Shown here piece by piece: positions 30,904 to 37,675 of a stretch of DNA of 38,562 nucleotides (position 1 is its first letter; each line of letters opens with the position of its first letter). The notes below the pieces were generated by a model. That model made no database searches and was not told the DNA's origin. It was given only the letters and a program-made list of their open reading frames with translations. Both the position numbers and the translations under genes were made by a program. The stretch is from the IMG/VR virus record IMGVR_UViG_3300035701_000118, positions 1-38,562 of that record, one strand, 5' to 3'. This DNA is from a virus.

Positions 30904-31179
30904 TCAGTCCTCCACGTTCGGTCGGCCATACTTAATATCGACACCCGCGAACTGCTCGCCTTCGGCAAGCCTATTCATCGTATCTTTCCAAAAAGCTAAT
31001 TCCACATTGGCCTCTGTCAGGCTCGCATTGGCCGTCTCGAGCTGAGATTGGAGGTTCATGATTTCGACGTCCTTGTTCGCGGCCGTCACGCTGTGGCCGG
31101 CGAAAATCGAGATCCCGATGATCACGAGGATGACGATCACCGCGAAAACCCAGGTCCAGTCATGGTCTTTCATTTTCAT
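30904..31179 (-). CDS. Membrane-anchored coiled-coil protein, 91 aa
   Basis: One membrane helix (TWVFAVIVILVIIGISIFAG) then a coiled coil (VEIMNLQSQLETANASLTEA) and a short acidic end. An i-spanin-like layout, though far from the endolysin. It starts 17 nt inside the end of the methyltransferase gene. Confidence 0.55.
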   Translation of the reverse strand: MKMKDHDWTWVFAVIVILVIIGISIFAGHSVTAANKDVEIMNLQSQLETANASLTEANVELAFWKDTMNRLAEGEQFAGVDIKYGRPNVED

Positions 31180-32242
31180 GCCTTCCCCTCCTCTCTATTC
31201 CCGCGATCCCCTTGATGATCTGATACGCGACTTGTGGAACGATGGCATTGCCGAGGGCTTTGAGCCTTTGGATTCGATGTTGAGCCTTTGTAGGTTTAAA
31301 TTTGTCCAGGTTAATGGGTAGCCCATCATCCATTCGACAAAGACGGGTTGCAGCTTCAAGCCACGGCGTTCCCCAAAGGTCTGAAAGTCGTCCCCGCCGC
31401 TCCCTTCCCGCCGGGCCCTCGCGTAGTCCGGTCCGCTCGGTGTTCCCTTCGGCGTCGGGAGCATCGCTATCTGGTCTCTGAGTTTGTAATGCCCGTCGCA
31501 ACCAGGGCGAATCTCCATCACCCCGCCTTCCGTCTCTACCGATGAAGGGGTCTTGAGAAGGCGTATCGCTAGTGCCAATGGTGGAGTTGCAACGCCTCCT
31601 CTGTCCTTCCGTCTTGTCCATGCCTCCTCTTTTTCGTCGGTCGTTTTCCCCGCTCTCATTGTGGGCAATAATCCAGACCCTGTCCCTCCTGTGTGGGGCG
31701 TTGACGGCACAAGCCGGAATAATAACCGGCCAGACTTCGTAGCCTTCGCGTTCCATCTGAGAAAGCAATTTCTCGAAGACCAAGCCATGCTTGAGGCTAA
31801 GAATTCCAGGAGGGTTCTCAAAGATGGCCCAGGTCGGGTTGACGTCGGCAAATACTCTAAGAGCTTCCGGCCAGAGCCAACGGTCATCCGCCGTTCCTCG
31901 TCGCTTCCCGGCGACCGATGCAGGCTGGCAGGGGACTCCCCCGGTAAGTAGGGTTGCTCCTCGGAATCGGGTGCCGTTGAAGTTTCGGATGTCGGAAAAG
32001 AGAAAAGGTTTTTTAGGCTTCCCCGGTGTCTCGTCCCTCCGCTTAGTCCGCCCCATCGTCCCCGACGGCTGCTTTCCGATCCTGCGGTCGGTGTCGGCAA
32101 CAGCCCCGAACCTTGCCTTGAGGATTTCCTGGCAGAAAGGCTCGATTTCACAGAAGACGATCGTCCTGAATCCCGCCCATCCTGCGGCGAGCGCAAAGCC
32201 GCCGATGCCCGAGAAGAGATCGATGTGCGTGAGGTCATTCAC
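31160..32242 (-). CDS. dcm: DNA cytosine-5 methyltransferase
   Basis: 360 aa. Family motifs are in order: I DLFSGIGGF (8-16), IV GGVPCQPAS with catalytic Cys105, VI FENPPG (141-146), VIII HRRDRVWIIA (184-193), and the final IX-X LKALGNAIVPQVAYQ (328-341). Residues about 198-290, where a target-recognition domain is expected, are Arg/Asp/Gly-rich and of low complexity. It probably protects phage DNA from restriction by methylating cytosine. It overlaps the upstream replication gene by ATGA. A second open frame covers almost the whole gene (see next entry). Confidence 0.95.
   Translation of the reverse strand: MNDLTHIDLFSGIGGFALAAGWAGFRTIVFCEIEPFCQEILKARFGAVADTDRRIGKQPSGTMGRTKRRDETPGKPKKPFLFSDIRNFNGTRFRGATLLTGGVPCQPASVAGKRRGTADDRWLWPEALRVFADVNPTWAIFENPPGILSLKHGLVFEKLLSQMEREGYEVWPVIIPACAVNAPHRRDRVWIIAHNESGENDRRKRGGMDKTEGQRRRCNSTIGTSDTPSQDPFIGRDGRRGDGDSPWLRRALQTQRPDSDAPDAEGNTERTGLREGPAGRERRGRLSDLWGTPWLEAATRLCRMDDGLPINLDKFKPTKAQHRIQRLKALGNAIVPQVAYQIIKGIAGIERRGRHENERP
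31195..32238 (-). CDS. Overlapping LPTP-type open frame within dcm (+1 frame)
   Basis: A 347-codon uninterrupted frame lies inside dcm in another frame. Its ATG (32238) is only 4 nt after the dcm ATG (ATGAATGA), so one ribosome-binding region could serve both. It contains repeated LPTP phrases: GSGLLPTPTAGS (44-54), SGLLPTMRAG (188-197), AMLPTPKGTPSGP (258-270), and a C-terminal LQPVFVEWMMGYPLTWTNL (296-314). From memory, proteins with LPTP phrases and an LNPxFVEWLMGFPxGWT end are widespread in phage databases. Whether it is translated cannot be seen, so confidence is moderate. Confidence 0.4.
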   Translation of the reverse strand: MTSRTSISSRASAALRSPQDGRDSGRSSSVKSSLSARKSSRQGSGLLPTPTAGSESSRRGRWGGLSGGTRHRGSLKNLFSFPTSETSTAPDSEEQPYLPGESPASLHRSPGSDEERRMTVGSGRKLLEYLPTSTRPGPSLRTLLEFLASSMAWSSRNCFLRWNAKATKSGRLLFRLVPSTPHTGGTGSGLLPTMRAGKTTDEKEEAWTRRKDRGGVATPPLALAIRLLKTPSSVETEGGVMEIRPGCDGHYKLRDQIAMLPTPKGTPSGPDYARARREGSGGDDFQTFGERRGLKLQPVFVEWMMGYPLTWTNLNLQRLNIESKGSKPSAMPSFHKSRIRSSRGSRE

Positions 32243-33213
32243 CTGCCCTCCTTAGCCATCCTCTTCTTAAATTCGGAGAATGTCTCGATGTCGATCGGGA
32301 TCTCCTCCTCCGTCTCGTATCCCCTCTCCTTCATGAAGGCCTTCAATCTTTCTTCGTATTCGGAGCGGAGTTTCTTTTCGGCATCTTGGTCCACGACCGT
32401 CGGCGCAACGTACTGGCAGGCTTCTCGCGTTCGCGTCGACTTGCCTATATAGTTTCCCTCGATGATCTTCGTGTAGTTCGATGGCCGCAGGATCCAATCG
32501 AACGTCGCCAGAAAGGGCTCCTTGTCTTCTTTGTGCGTCAGGCCAAGTAGGAACGGCGACTTTCCGACCGCTTCAAGGAGCTTACTGAAAACGAACCCCT
32601 CCTCCCCCATCCTGGCCCTCAGATACGATTCCCTGGTCGACTTCGTCTTCACCCCCTGGATCTGGACGAGCCCATTTTTTGTGGCGAAGCGGTTCCACTC
32701 TAATATGATATTATTTTTTATAATATCATTTAATATAGGGGCCGCTTTTCCGGACCCTTGTTCCGTTTTTCCGGAACATTCACGCATCTGCTTTGATACC
32801 TTGCGTTTATATCGGTCCGTGAACCCGTAGTTCTCCGTGGTCTTGATGTAATAGATCCCGGCCCCGCGCTCCTCGATCTTCGCAACGTCCCCATGTAGGC
32901 AGATCGTGATCGTCGCCTTGAGGTGTTCGATCGGTACGTAGAACGTCCCAGCGAGCTGCTCGAGCGGGTAAGGCGTCGTTTCGTTCGCCCGGATGTAGCC
33001 GTCATCCTTCTTTGAGAGCGTCATGAGGTCCGCGAAAATCCCGCGGAGGTCAACGTACGGCTGCTCAAGGATAGAGGCCGGGATGAGTGGCGCGATCTTC
33101 GGCCAGCGCTCCGCCCAGCCGGGGCGGATGATGAGTTCGTGGCGCGTCGAGCCGAAGAGCCACTTGTCGATGTAGAACGGATACCATTTGTCGATCTCTT
33201 TTCCGCGCTTCAT
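32239..33213 (-). CDS. Replication initiator / DnaD-like replisome organiser
   Basis: 324 aa. The N-terminal ~130 residues follow the phage replisome-organiser pattern: WYPFYIDKWLFGSTRHELI, then RGIFADLMTLSKKDDGYIRA and PLEQLAGTFYVPIEHL, a winged-helix domain. A linker at residues about 145-172 is encoded by a very AT-rich segment with an inverted repeat. The C-terminus has FDWILRPSNYTKIIEGNY, the short helicase/loader-binding form seen at the end of such initiators. It probably opens the origin and loads host DnaB; no helicase or polymerase gene is present here. AGGAAAG precedes the ATG. Confidence 0.75.
   Translation of the reverse strand: MKRGKEIDKWYPFYIDKWLFGSTRHELIIRPGWAERWPKIAPLIPASILEQPYVDLRGIFADLMTLSKKDDGYIRANETTPYPLEQLAGTFYVPIEHLKATITICLHGDVAKIEERGAGIYYIKTTENYGFTDRYKRKVSKQMRECSGKTEQGSGKAAPILNDIIKNNIILEWNRFATKNGLVQIQGVKTKSTRESYLRARMGEEGFVFSKLLEAVGKSPFLLGLTHKEDKEPFLATFDWILRPSNYTKIIEGNYIGKSTRTREACQYVAPTVVDQDAEKKLRSEYEERLKAFMKERGYETEEEIPIDIETFSEFKKRMAKEGR
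32699..32740. other. Candidate replication origin: AT-rich segment with hairpin in initiator gene
   Basis: An almost pure A+T stretch stands out in a G+C-rich gene. It contains the perfect inverted repeat ATGATATTAT (32705-32714) and ATAATATCAT (32720-32729) with a TTTTT loop. Several phages keep their origin inside the initiator gene at the linker between its domains, and this segment falls there (residues about 158-172). No clear set of iterons was found beside it. Confidence 0.5.
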
Positions 33214-33292: not shown

Positions 33293-33772
33293 TCATGCCT
33301 TGTTCTGCTTTCCGATCTCGGCCATGGTCGGCCTTAGTTTATTGTGTAGACTCTGGTGCTCACCTTCTGATTGGAAAAGCTGAAGATTTTCGGGGCGATT
33401 ATCATCACGGATGCCATTGATATGGTGAACGACTTCGCCCTCGTTCATGGCTCGTCCAATCTTAGCCTCCATTACAAGGCTATGTTCCGAGACATACCCC
33501 TGTGCATTGGCTAAGCGGTGGCCGGGGATTTTGACAATCACATATCCAAGAGAATTTTTATGGCGACCACCGCCCCAATTCGGATTACGAGGCCCAGTCT
33601 TTGCCTCACTCATGTGTTTTCTGATCGCCTCGCTATGGCGTCTACCCAAATTGAAATTACGCCCCTTCATCTTTGCGCTTATTTTTGCCTTGGTTTCATC
33701 CGTATGCTTCTTGCCCCAAAACGGATTTTTACAACCTCGAATATCGGGCCGATTTTTCCCAGTTAATGTCAT
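33293..33772 (-). CDS. HNH homing-type endonuclease with NUMOD3 repeats
   Basis: 159 aa. NUMOD3-type modules at residues about 14-70 (NPFWGKKHTDETKAKISAKM, GRRHSEAIRKHMSEAK, GPRNPNWGGG), then the nuclease core EHSLVMEAKIGRAMNEGEVV, HHINGIRDDNRPENLQLF. Free-standing gene between the coiled-coil protein and the replication initiator. The gene is visibly richer in A+T than its neighbours, which suggests recent acquisition. Confidence 0.9.
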   Translation of the reverse strand: MTLTGKNRPDIRGCKNPFWGKKHTDETKAKISAKMKGRNFNLGRRHSEAIRKHMSEAKTGPRNPNWGGGRHKNSLGYVIVKIPGHRLANAQGYVSEHSLVMEAKIGRAMNEGEVVHHINGIRDDNRPENLQLFQSEGEHQSLHNKLRPTMAEIGKQNKA

Positions 33773-36147: not shown

Positions 36148-37181
36148 GCCTTCCCGCCCTTCGCGGCGTCGGCCCGTTTCTTCTCCCAGAACTCTTCGGG
36201 CGGCTCGTGGTCCTTTGCGGGATTGCCGATCTTCTCCGGCTTGCTGTCGTCGGCCGCGACCTCCTCCAGGACCTCCTTTTCCTCTTCCGCCTCAACGTCG
36301 ACGATGGTCTCCTTGCGGACCTCAAAGTCCTTCGATTCGCCGCCGTCCTCGGCCTGCTTCATGAGGTCAGCCAGGTCGCGCGGGGTGTTGTCGTTCCGCC
36401 ATCCGTGGACGACGACGTTCGCGTAGTTCCCGCCCGGCCCGGTCTTCATCACGACTTGCGCCGCGGCGATCGCCGGGTGGTCCTTGAGGACGTTCCGCTC
36501 GACGATCGTCGTCGCCATCCGGTCCCCGAACCTCTGCCTCTGGGTGTGCTCCTCGAGGCAGTCGACGATCGCCTGGTCCTGGTAGTTGATCCAGATCCCG
36601 AGCGGCTTCTCCGTGGGGAAGAATGCCCAGAGACCGTCGGATGTCGGCTTCTCTTCCGCGATGCCGTAGAGGGCGCAGTTCGGGCATTCCTTTTCATCCG
36701 TCGGCACGCGGTTCCCTTCCGCGTCCTTTTTCCAGACCACCCTTTTCATCTTCGCCTGGATGCTCTGGATGAAGTACGTGTAGGCATTATAGAAAAGCGT
36801 TTTGTCGATGACCACGATATTCCCGGCCGGCGAATAGCCGATCCCCATCGCCCGGATATTCACGCTCTCAATCGCCTTCGTCCTCCGGTTCCGCTCGATG
36901 TGCGGGTTCGGCACGGGCTTCCCGTCGACGATGACGGACTGCGGCTTCAGGATCGAGATCGAGGCGACCTTGTTCAGGTGCCAATATCCTGATGCCGTGA
37001 TGCTCCACTTGCCCTTCAGGCTGTAGATCTGGCCGTGCTTCTCGTAGAGGGTCATGTCGGCGCGGACGGGGGCCATGATCTGGCCGTCCTGAACCTTGAA
37101 ATAGATCTTGCCAAAATCAGCGGTCAGGGCTACCATCTTTTCAGACTTCGCCAATGCCGTTTCTTTTTTTATCTCGTTCAT
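36144..37181 (-). CDS. Unrecognised 345-aa protein, probable recombination partner
   Basis: The first ~230 residues form a globular alpha/beta domain (MVALTADFGKIYFKVQDGQI, GYWHLNKVASISILKPQSVI, VIDKTLFYNAYTYFIQSIQA), with a possible metal site from two Cys (KECPNCALYG) and a late WINYQDQAIVDCLEE. The last ~90 residues are acidic and probably disordered, like the tails of ssDNA-binding proteins. It is coupled by ATGA to a RecB-like nuclease, the usual place of a ssDNA-annealing protein, but I see no RecT, Erf, Rad52 or Redbeta signature. Function is therefore inferred from context only. Confidence 0.5.
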   Translation of the reverse strand: MNEIKKETALAKSEKMVALTADFGKIYFKVQDGQIMAPVRADMTLYEKHGQIYSLKGKWSITASGYWHLNKVASISILKPQSVIVDGKPVPNPHIERNRRTKAIESVNIRAMGIGYSPAGNIVVIDKTLFYNAYTYFIQSIQAKMKRVVWKKDAEGNRVPTDEKECPNCALYGIAEEKPTSDGLWAFFPTEKPLGIWINYQDQAIVDCLEEHTQRQRFGDRMATTIVERNVLKDHPAIAAAQVVMKTGPGGNYANVVVHGWRNDNTPRDLADLMKQAEDGGESKDFEVRKETIVDVEAEEEKEVLEEVAADDSKPEKIGNPAKDHEPPEEFWEKKRADAAKGGKA

Positions 37182-37642
37182 ATTTTTCTCCTCAGACTTT
37201 CATGAAGTGATGAATGTTCACTCGCAGAGAGAACCATGAGATTTGCTGGATGGTTATTGAGCCTGTTTCCGTCCTTGTGATGAACAACTTCGTCATCGTC
37301 CAGGAATCTTCCGAGGTGTTTTTCCGCCGCGATCCGGTGCGCAAAAACCATGCCCTGGGAATTTTTGTACGGATGATCCGGGGCTGACATGATCAGGTAG
37401 CCTTGATCCGTAACCGTTGACCATCCGGGATGCTTACGAAGCCATTGCTTCCAATCCGCGACGCTCTTTCCTGGATGTCTTTTTTTATAAGCCCGGTAAG
37501 ATTCCAGCATTTTTTCGGGATTCCTCTTTCTGTAGGCTTCCTGAATTTCTTTGGCCCTTTCGGGGTTGAGCGCCCTCCATCGTTTGTTACGGAGGCGACA
37601 GTTTTCCCTCCTGCGCGCAATCCCTAAAAACGGCCTACCCAT
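37178..37642 (-). CDS. HNH homing-type endonuclease, 154 aa
   Basis: Start set at ATG 37642 (MGRPFLGIARRRENCRLRNK) because AAGGAGG lies six bases upstream; a GTG ten codons earlier would put this site inside the gene. A basic helical N-terminus (YRKRNPEKMLESYRAYKKRH) is followed by the HNH core AHRIAAEKHLGRFLDDDEVV, HHKDGNRLNNHPANLMVL. It overlaps the downstream gene by ATGA. Inserted between the Zn-finger gene and the recombination gene. Confidence 0.9.
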   Translation of the reverse strand: MGRPFLGIARRRENCRLRNKRWRALNPERAKEIQEAYRKRNPEKMLESYRAYKKRHPGKSVADWKQWLRKHPGWSTVTDQGYLIMSAPDHPYKNSQGMVFAHRIAAEKHLGRFLDDDEVVHHKDGNRLNNHPANLMVLSASEHSSLHESLRRKI

Positions 37643-37675
37643 TTTTTCCTCCTTGACATTCCCCGCGGACACGCG

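Follow-up and report, generated by a model that had tools for sequence, protein, structure and literature searches.

A C5-cytosine DNA methyltransferase gene that is open over almost its whole length in a second reading frame raises the question of whether it encodes one protein or two and, if two, what the second one contributes. The window analysed here, by which we mean the whole 38,562-nucleotide stretch of viral DNA, is from a tailed phage with an integrase and a terminase, and all features discussed below lie on its minus strand. We refer to the methyltransferase frame as alpha (31160-32242, 360 aa, GTG start) and to the second open frame inside it, in the +1 frame, as beta (31195-32238, 347 aa, ATG start). 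The initial annotation described the nested frame as 347 codons running from 4 nt after the alpha start to 35 nt before the alpha end, and these positions are exact; the ATG start that it gave to alpha has to be corrected to GTG, the string being GTGAATGA and not ATGAATGA. The LPTP phrases and the VEWMMGYPLTWT motif that it reported are present in the beta frame.

A Shine-Dalgarno sequence read from the window, AAGGAGG (32247-32253), stands 4 nt before the alpha GTG and 8 nt before the beta ATG, and this single site could serve both starts. The gene upstream (32239-33213) is a relative of replication initiation or DnaD-like helicase loader proteins (phrog_10469, E=4.5e-15), and its TGA stop overlaps the GTG of alpha. 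The 38.6-kb phage genome also holds three HNH_3 homing-type endonuclease genes (613-1080, 33293-33772, and 37178-37672), two of them with NUMOD3 motifs and one next to the replication gene, on its upstream side.

The methyltransferase frame

Alpha matches PF00145 (E=7e-39) and phrog_363 (E=2.6e-63), and its AlphaFold model superposes on M.HhaI (Z 24.5, 227 residues aligned of 327) as well as on M.HaeIII (Z 21.4). Motifs I, IV (PCQ), VI (EN), VIII, and X, which mark PF00145 members, all occur in order. Motif I reads DLFSGIGGF (32195-32221), with columns that are invariant or nearly so; the catalytic PCQ of motif IV (31925-31933) is invariant in alignment A5; motif VI reads ENP (31811-31819), the E and N being invariant and ENV being usual; motif VIII is APHRRDR (31679-31699); and motif X is LGNAIVP (31235-31255), with G331, N332, and P336 invariant. 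Invariant columns over the whole of alpha include F10, G12, P104-C105-Q106, E142-N143, H184, R186, and G331-N332. Within the set of motifs I to X, motif IX is absent from the alpha chain and is found in the +1 frame, in beta, instead.

The catalytic domain and motif X of alpha are modelled with confidence, and pLDDT falls below 50 at residues 204-244 and 255-290. These values cover most of a low-complexity region (residues 204-290, 31373-31633) that appears to be the frame-0 reading of a target-recognition stretch encoded by beta. An early suspicion that the methyltransferase frame is shadow-like at residues of about 198-290 is thus backed by the model and also by sequence identity there to two relatives (L001 and L163), which is 0.66 and 0.68 for beta against 0.48 and 0.45 for alpha. 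Further upstream, alpha residues 51-85 (about 31990-32090) form an insertion in the closest relatives of the window. In 7/7 cases the beta frame has GLLPTP ahead of it, and the insertion resembles an additional N-terminal LPTP module of beta read, as a shadow, in frame 0.

Coding constraint on the second frame

A beta-based search of IMG/VR gave 80 loci, and alpha is present in 80/80 of them, one base behind beta in 78; in the other two (L074 and L076) the beta motif is in alpha's own frame. To avoid the bias of a set selected by beta itself, further loci were collected with alpha as the only query. In these 80 viral loci the median longest +1 run is 254 codons, compared with 58.5 in the +2 frame, so that homologous methyltransferase genes do keep the second frame open, where a failure to do so had been named at the outset as the sign of a shadow. 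Among 155 control genes, taken from the other genes of the alpha- and beta-found loci, median longest runs are 66 (+1) and 55 (+2) codons, and only 1.3% have a +1 run of at least half the gene length. Canonical methyltransferase genes that do not have the frame have longest +1 runs of 142 of 364 codons (IPP21) and 86 of 304 codons (PMBT1).

We also permuted synonymous codons within each gene, holding the alpha protein and the codon counts fixed, in 120 non-redundant loci. For the gene in the window, the shuffles gave an expected longest +1 run of 173 codons, and a run of 347 was seen in none of the 200 permutations. Over the 120 loci, +1 stops numbered 774 against 1,253 expected, while +2 stops (2,333 against 2,398) were close to expectation; the median longest +1 run was 248.5 codons, compared with 103 in shuffles, and the EW(M/L)MG(F/Y)P motif was present in 84 genes where 0.155 were expected. 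The depletion of stops is also regional. In 70 aligned pairs there are no beta stops across motifs IV-VI, where 290 are expected, and no difference from expectation upstream of the beta core (191 observed, 177 expected).

The positions of substitutions along the gene show which frame is selected where. In 70 aligned pairs, alpha third positions take a 0.64 share of the substitutions upstream of beta. Within the overlap their share drops to 0.475 (first half) and then to 0.352 (second half), where alpha position 1, the wobble position of beta, is the most variable. Followed along the gene, the third-position share declines to about 0.34-0.37 past motif VIII and is back at 0.70 in motif X. Regional identities between the window and its six nearest relatives likewise place constraint on alpha only at residues 1-50 (0.88, beta 0.61) and at motif X (0.67, beta 0.36), and favour beta at motif IX (0.85, alpha 0.70). 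Alpha is therefore selected at its N-terminus and at motif X, beta in the target-recognition stretch, and both in between. Free substitution at sites that are silent in alpha and change beta had been proposed as a further mark of a shadow; such sites show constraint in every region predicted to code for beta.

By every comparative test, then, the gene is dual-coding, as one option of the initial annotation had it. Its other suggestion, of one overlap called in different frames, also describes the databases: the LPTP...EWxMGxP proteins are translations of methyltransferase genes in the +1 frame, and phages differ in whether one frame, the other, or both are called.

Identity of the second protein and its start

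Beta matches phrog_1008, "DNA methyltransferase" (E=2.9e-19, residues 101-318), a family whose name is silent on its being encoded inside another methyltransferase gene, and has no match among Pfam or NCBIfam models. It contains a predicted beta-hairpin (residues 160-178, 31705-31761; family consensus CxLTWKxKxTxxxRLLFQL; pLDDT block means 88 and 84), followed by LPT(P/M)-type repeats that are the probable target-recognition stretch (residues 189-262, 31453-31674). Across loci, LPTP phrases are nearly confined to the +1 frame (115 against 5 and 3; 114 against 5 and 3; 124 against 6 and 10). Relative to the window, two loci (L084 and L005) are dissimilar in this stretch in both frames. Their flanks stay similar to those of the window, as if the target-recognition module had been exchanged between close relatives, possibly altering specificity.

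The most conserved part of beta, LxPxFVEWMMGYPxGWT, includes residues 298-312 (PVFVEWMMGYPLTWT, 31303-31347), with E302 and G306 invariant in 91 sequences. Judged from the alignments, this motif is the catalytic motif IX that alpha lacks, since in single-chain relatives (L074 and L076) it stands immediately ahead of motif X in the methyltransferase frame, in a segment that aligns with M.HhaI. In L074 the segment LNPEFVEWMMGYP...LGNS aligns with M.HhaI 273-315 by phmmer, although the domain alone scores only 5 bits, and the alignment spans LNPEFVEWMMGYPIGW...LGNSLV of the single-chain relative.

The AlphaFold model of beta alone is poor (pTM 0.28) except for the hairpin at 160-178 and the motif IX helix, and a structure search with this model, which is too poor to interpret, found no fold match (best E about 1). 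Sequence searches of the PDB with beta alone and with Firecracker gp5 likewise gave no real match. The poor lone model fits a chain that would fold only with its partner, though it is no proof of this.

There are two candidate starts for beta. The ATG at 32238 shares the ribosome site of alpha, and in relatives of the window the beta frame contains one more GLLPTP phrase upstream; against this start, the first 50 codons show constraint on alpha only. The other candidate is an in-frame internal ATG at residue 118 (31885-31887, MTVGSGRK, with GAGGA upstream), which is conserved family-wide, being found in 95/168 loci, 82 of them with a Shine-Dalgarno-like sequence. The alpha Asp codon that creates this ATG at 31887 is GAT in 99/107 loci, compared with 44% GAT elsewhere in the same genes, and in 81/89 of the non-redundant set, although binomial P values exaggerate the strength of this bias because the sequences are related. 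The same bias would also result if the residue were conserved as an internal methionine of beta.

Arrangements among relatives and known systems

The nested form, with motif IX in +1 and motif X in frame 0, is the rule, being found in 68/81, 46/80, and 67/80 loci in three sets. Other arrangements of the same parts exist. Mycobacteriophage Ramsey gp69 has motifs I-VIII, the LPTP repeats, motif IX, and motif X in one frame, and it matches the beta profile just before motif X (97.6% probability, E=4e-12). In Firecracker (gp6/gp5) and Wile (gp75/gp74) the parts are staggered or nearly separate genes, with motifs IX and X both in the +1 frame. Comparison of Ramsey, Firecracker and Wile, and the window shows that the parts occur as a single chain, as staggered or near-separate genes, and nested.

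Four further loci, L133, L143, L074, and L247 (a Candidatus Megaera plasmid), have motifs IX and X in the methyltransferase frame; their +1 frame, with the hairpin and LPTP repeats, is still open for 152-285 codons and ends before motif IX. In Escherichia phage ST20 (L254) the annotation covers just a portion of the methyltransferase gene (1808-2461); the open frame continues well beyond it on the upstream side, and an overlapping frame of 305 codons carries LNPAHSRWLMGYP. One beta frame (L042:2389-3747) has an HNH or zinc-finger-like insertion of about 120 residues, at which alpha is interrupted, and which has no Pfam match at 1e-3; L043:2734-3831 was grouped with it for this observation. Out-of-frame HNH insertions have been reported in mycobacteriophage methylases (PMC11855218) and may be compared with that of L042.

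The family is broad. Among phages it is found in tailed phages of Paenibacillus, Lacticaseibacillus, Mycobacterium, Gordonia, Bacteroides, Acinetobacter, and Escherichia, and among bacteria in contigs from at least 10 phyla by their titles, which may include prophages. The coliphages N15 (gene 58), KMB43, and ESSI2 have the nested form with divergent motifs. In 5,426 E. coli genomes, the DNA of N15 gene 58 has no near match and the ESSI2 gene has partial matches only, in two genomes.

The closest known system is M.EcoHK31I, in which the small subunit is nested in the gene of the large subunit in a different frame and activity needs both. This two-polypeptide C5-methyltransferase, which recognises YGGCCR, has motifs I-VIII and X in the large subunit and motif IX alone in the small one, and its target-recognition domain was placed, by prediction, in the large subunit (PMC3404938). 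The window shares both the division of motifs, I-VIII and X in alpha and IX in beta, and the nesting in another frame, but may differ in target recognition, which selection and the alpha model would place in beta. The two-subunit M.AquI (CYCGRG) is likewise split after motif VIII within the variable region, but its small subunit carries both IX and X, while the window keeps X in alpha. M.HhaI and M.HaeIII share their fold with alpha and motif IX with beta, but as a single chain in one frame.

Among the Cluster O mycobacteriophages, Corndog gp7/gp6 and Firecracker gp6/gp5 encode the same two parts in frames that overlap, and each of the two is annotated as a DNA methylase; they differ from the window in having motif X in the second frame too and a short overlap (209 nt in Firecracker). 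Cresawn et al. (2015) found coding potential in the Corndog overlap and no splicing, matched the gp6 C-terminus to the last helices of M.HaeIII, and raised either assembling products or a frameshift, leaving the mechanism open; neither product of genes 7 and 6 was detected by mass spectrometry (PMC4351075). Open-licence papers yielded no description of a general family of nested alpha/beta methyltransferases. The kind of enzyme, a naturally split, dual-frame C5-methyltransferase, is known, and what is new, as far as those papers show, is its breadth.

A probable two-chain enzyme and its alternatives

Both frames are selected, motif IX is in beta and not in alpha, and the parts are fused in some relatives. 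We hypothesize, with considerable confidence, that a dual-coded, split C5-cytosine DNA methyltransferase is made from this locus, with alpha (motifs I-VIII and X) and beta (target recognition and motif IX) assembling into one enzyme. Alpha, read in frame 0, would supply AdoMet binding and catalysis; target recognition and motif IX would come from beta, whose own +1-frame start lies within alpha and would allow its independent translation. Both chains, made from one transcript, would then assemble into one enzyme, for which M.EcoHK31I is a precedent. Where beta encodes target recognition, alpha may be a read-through linker only, carrying its chain on to motif X. By analogy with known roles of phage methyltransferases, the enzyme might protect the phage's own DNA from host restriction. 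The fusion of both parts in Ramsey gp69 supports the two-chain model in the manner of a Rosetta stone. Counted against it are the poor lone model of beta, the placement of target recognition in M.EcoHK31I, and the undetected Corndog products.

Programmed +1 frameshifting, by which motifs I-VIII would be read in alpha before a shift into beta to give a single fused methyltransferase, suits Firecracker and Wile, where IX and X are both in +1 and one shift would yield a full enzyme, and it was raised for the Corndog genes (PMC4351075). For the nested form we regard it as quite improbable. The window and the majority of loci in the three sets have IX in +1 but motif X in frame 0, so that the product of a single shift would lack motif X; moreover, constraint on beta begins well upstream of a useful shift site, as the stop-free motif IV-VI region shows, and the internal ATG is kept by synonymous codon choice.

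To much the same small degree, beta might be a real protein with a function of its own, for instance anti-restriction or regulatory, rather than a methyltransferase subunit. The lack of a Pfam or NCBIfam match and the poor lone structure model would agree with this, but beta carries the very motif missing from alpha, is fused with the alpha part in Ramsey gp69, and was accompanied by alpha at every beta-found locus. A +1 frame that is merely an untranslated shadow, open through base composition and alpha conservation, is scarcely credible: high G+C does lengthen chance frames (control +1 median 94 above 55% G+C and 50 below 45%), but the synonymous-shuffle, codon-position, and stop-count tests all reject it, the canonical IPP21 and PMBT1 genes do not have the frame, and the same part stands in the main frame of Ramsey gp69. 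The beta frame is not a shadow.

Implications

Of the two options raised in 2015 for the mycobacteriophage methylases, assembling products or a frameshift, the former is the probable answer. Many records annotate only one of the two frames, and Pfam and NCBIfam lack a model for beta; target specificities drawn from alpha by itself may therefore rest on shadow sequence. The same layout is present in gene 58 of N15, a phage in common laboratory use, which leaves the idea open to direct test. The locus documents, in addition, an extensive overlap of two genes on one strand that very distant phages and bacteria alike have retained. More generally, we think it rather likely that dual-coded heterodimers make up a large and so far unmodelled share of phage C5-methyltransferases, with their DNA-target specificity in a hidden frame; if so, the question on the mycobacteriophage methylases would be answered, and specificity has been sought in the wrong frame. 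The overlap, about 200 codons long, would then be common to tailed phages and many bacterial phyla, and its single-chain, staggered, and nested versions would trace the splitting of a gene.
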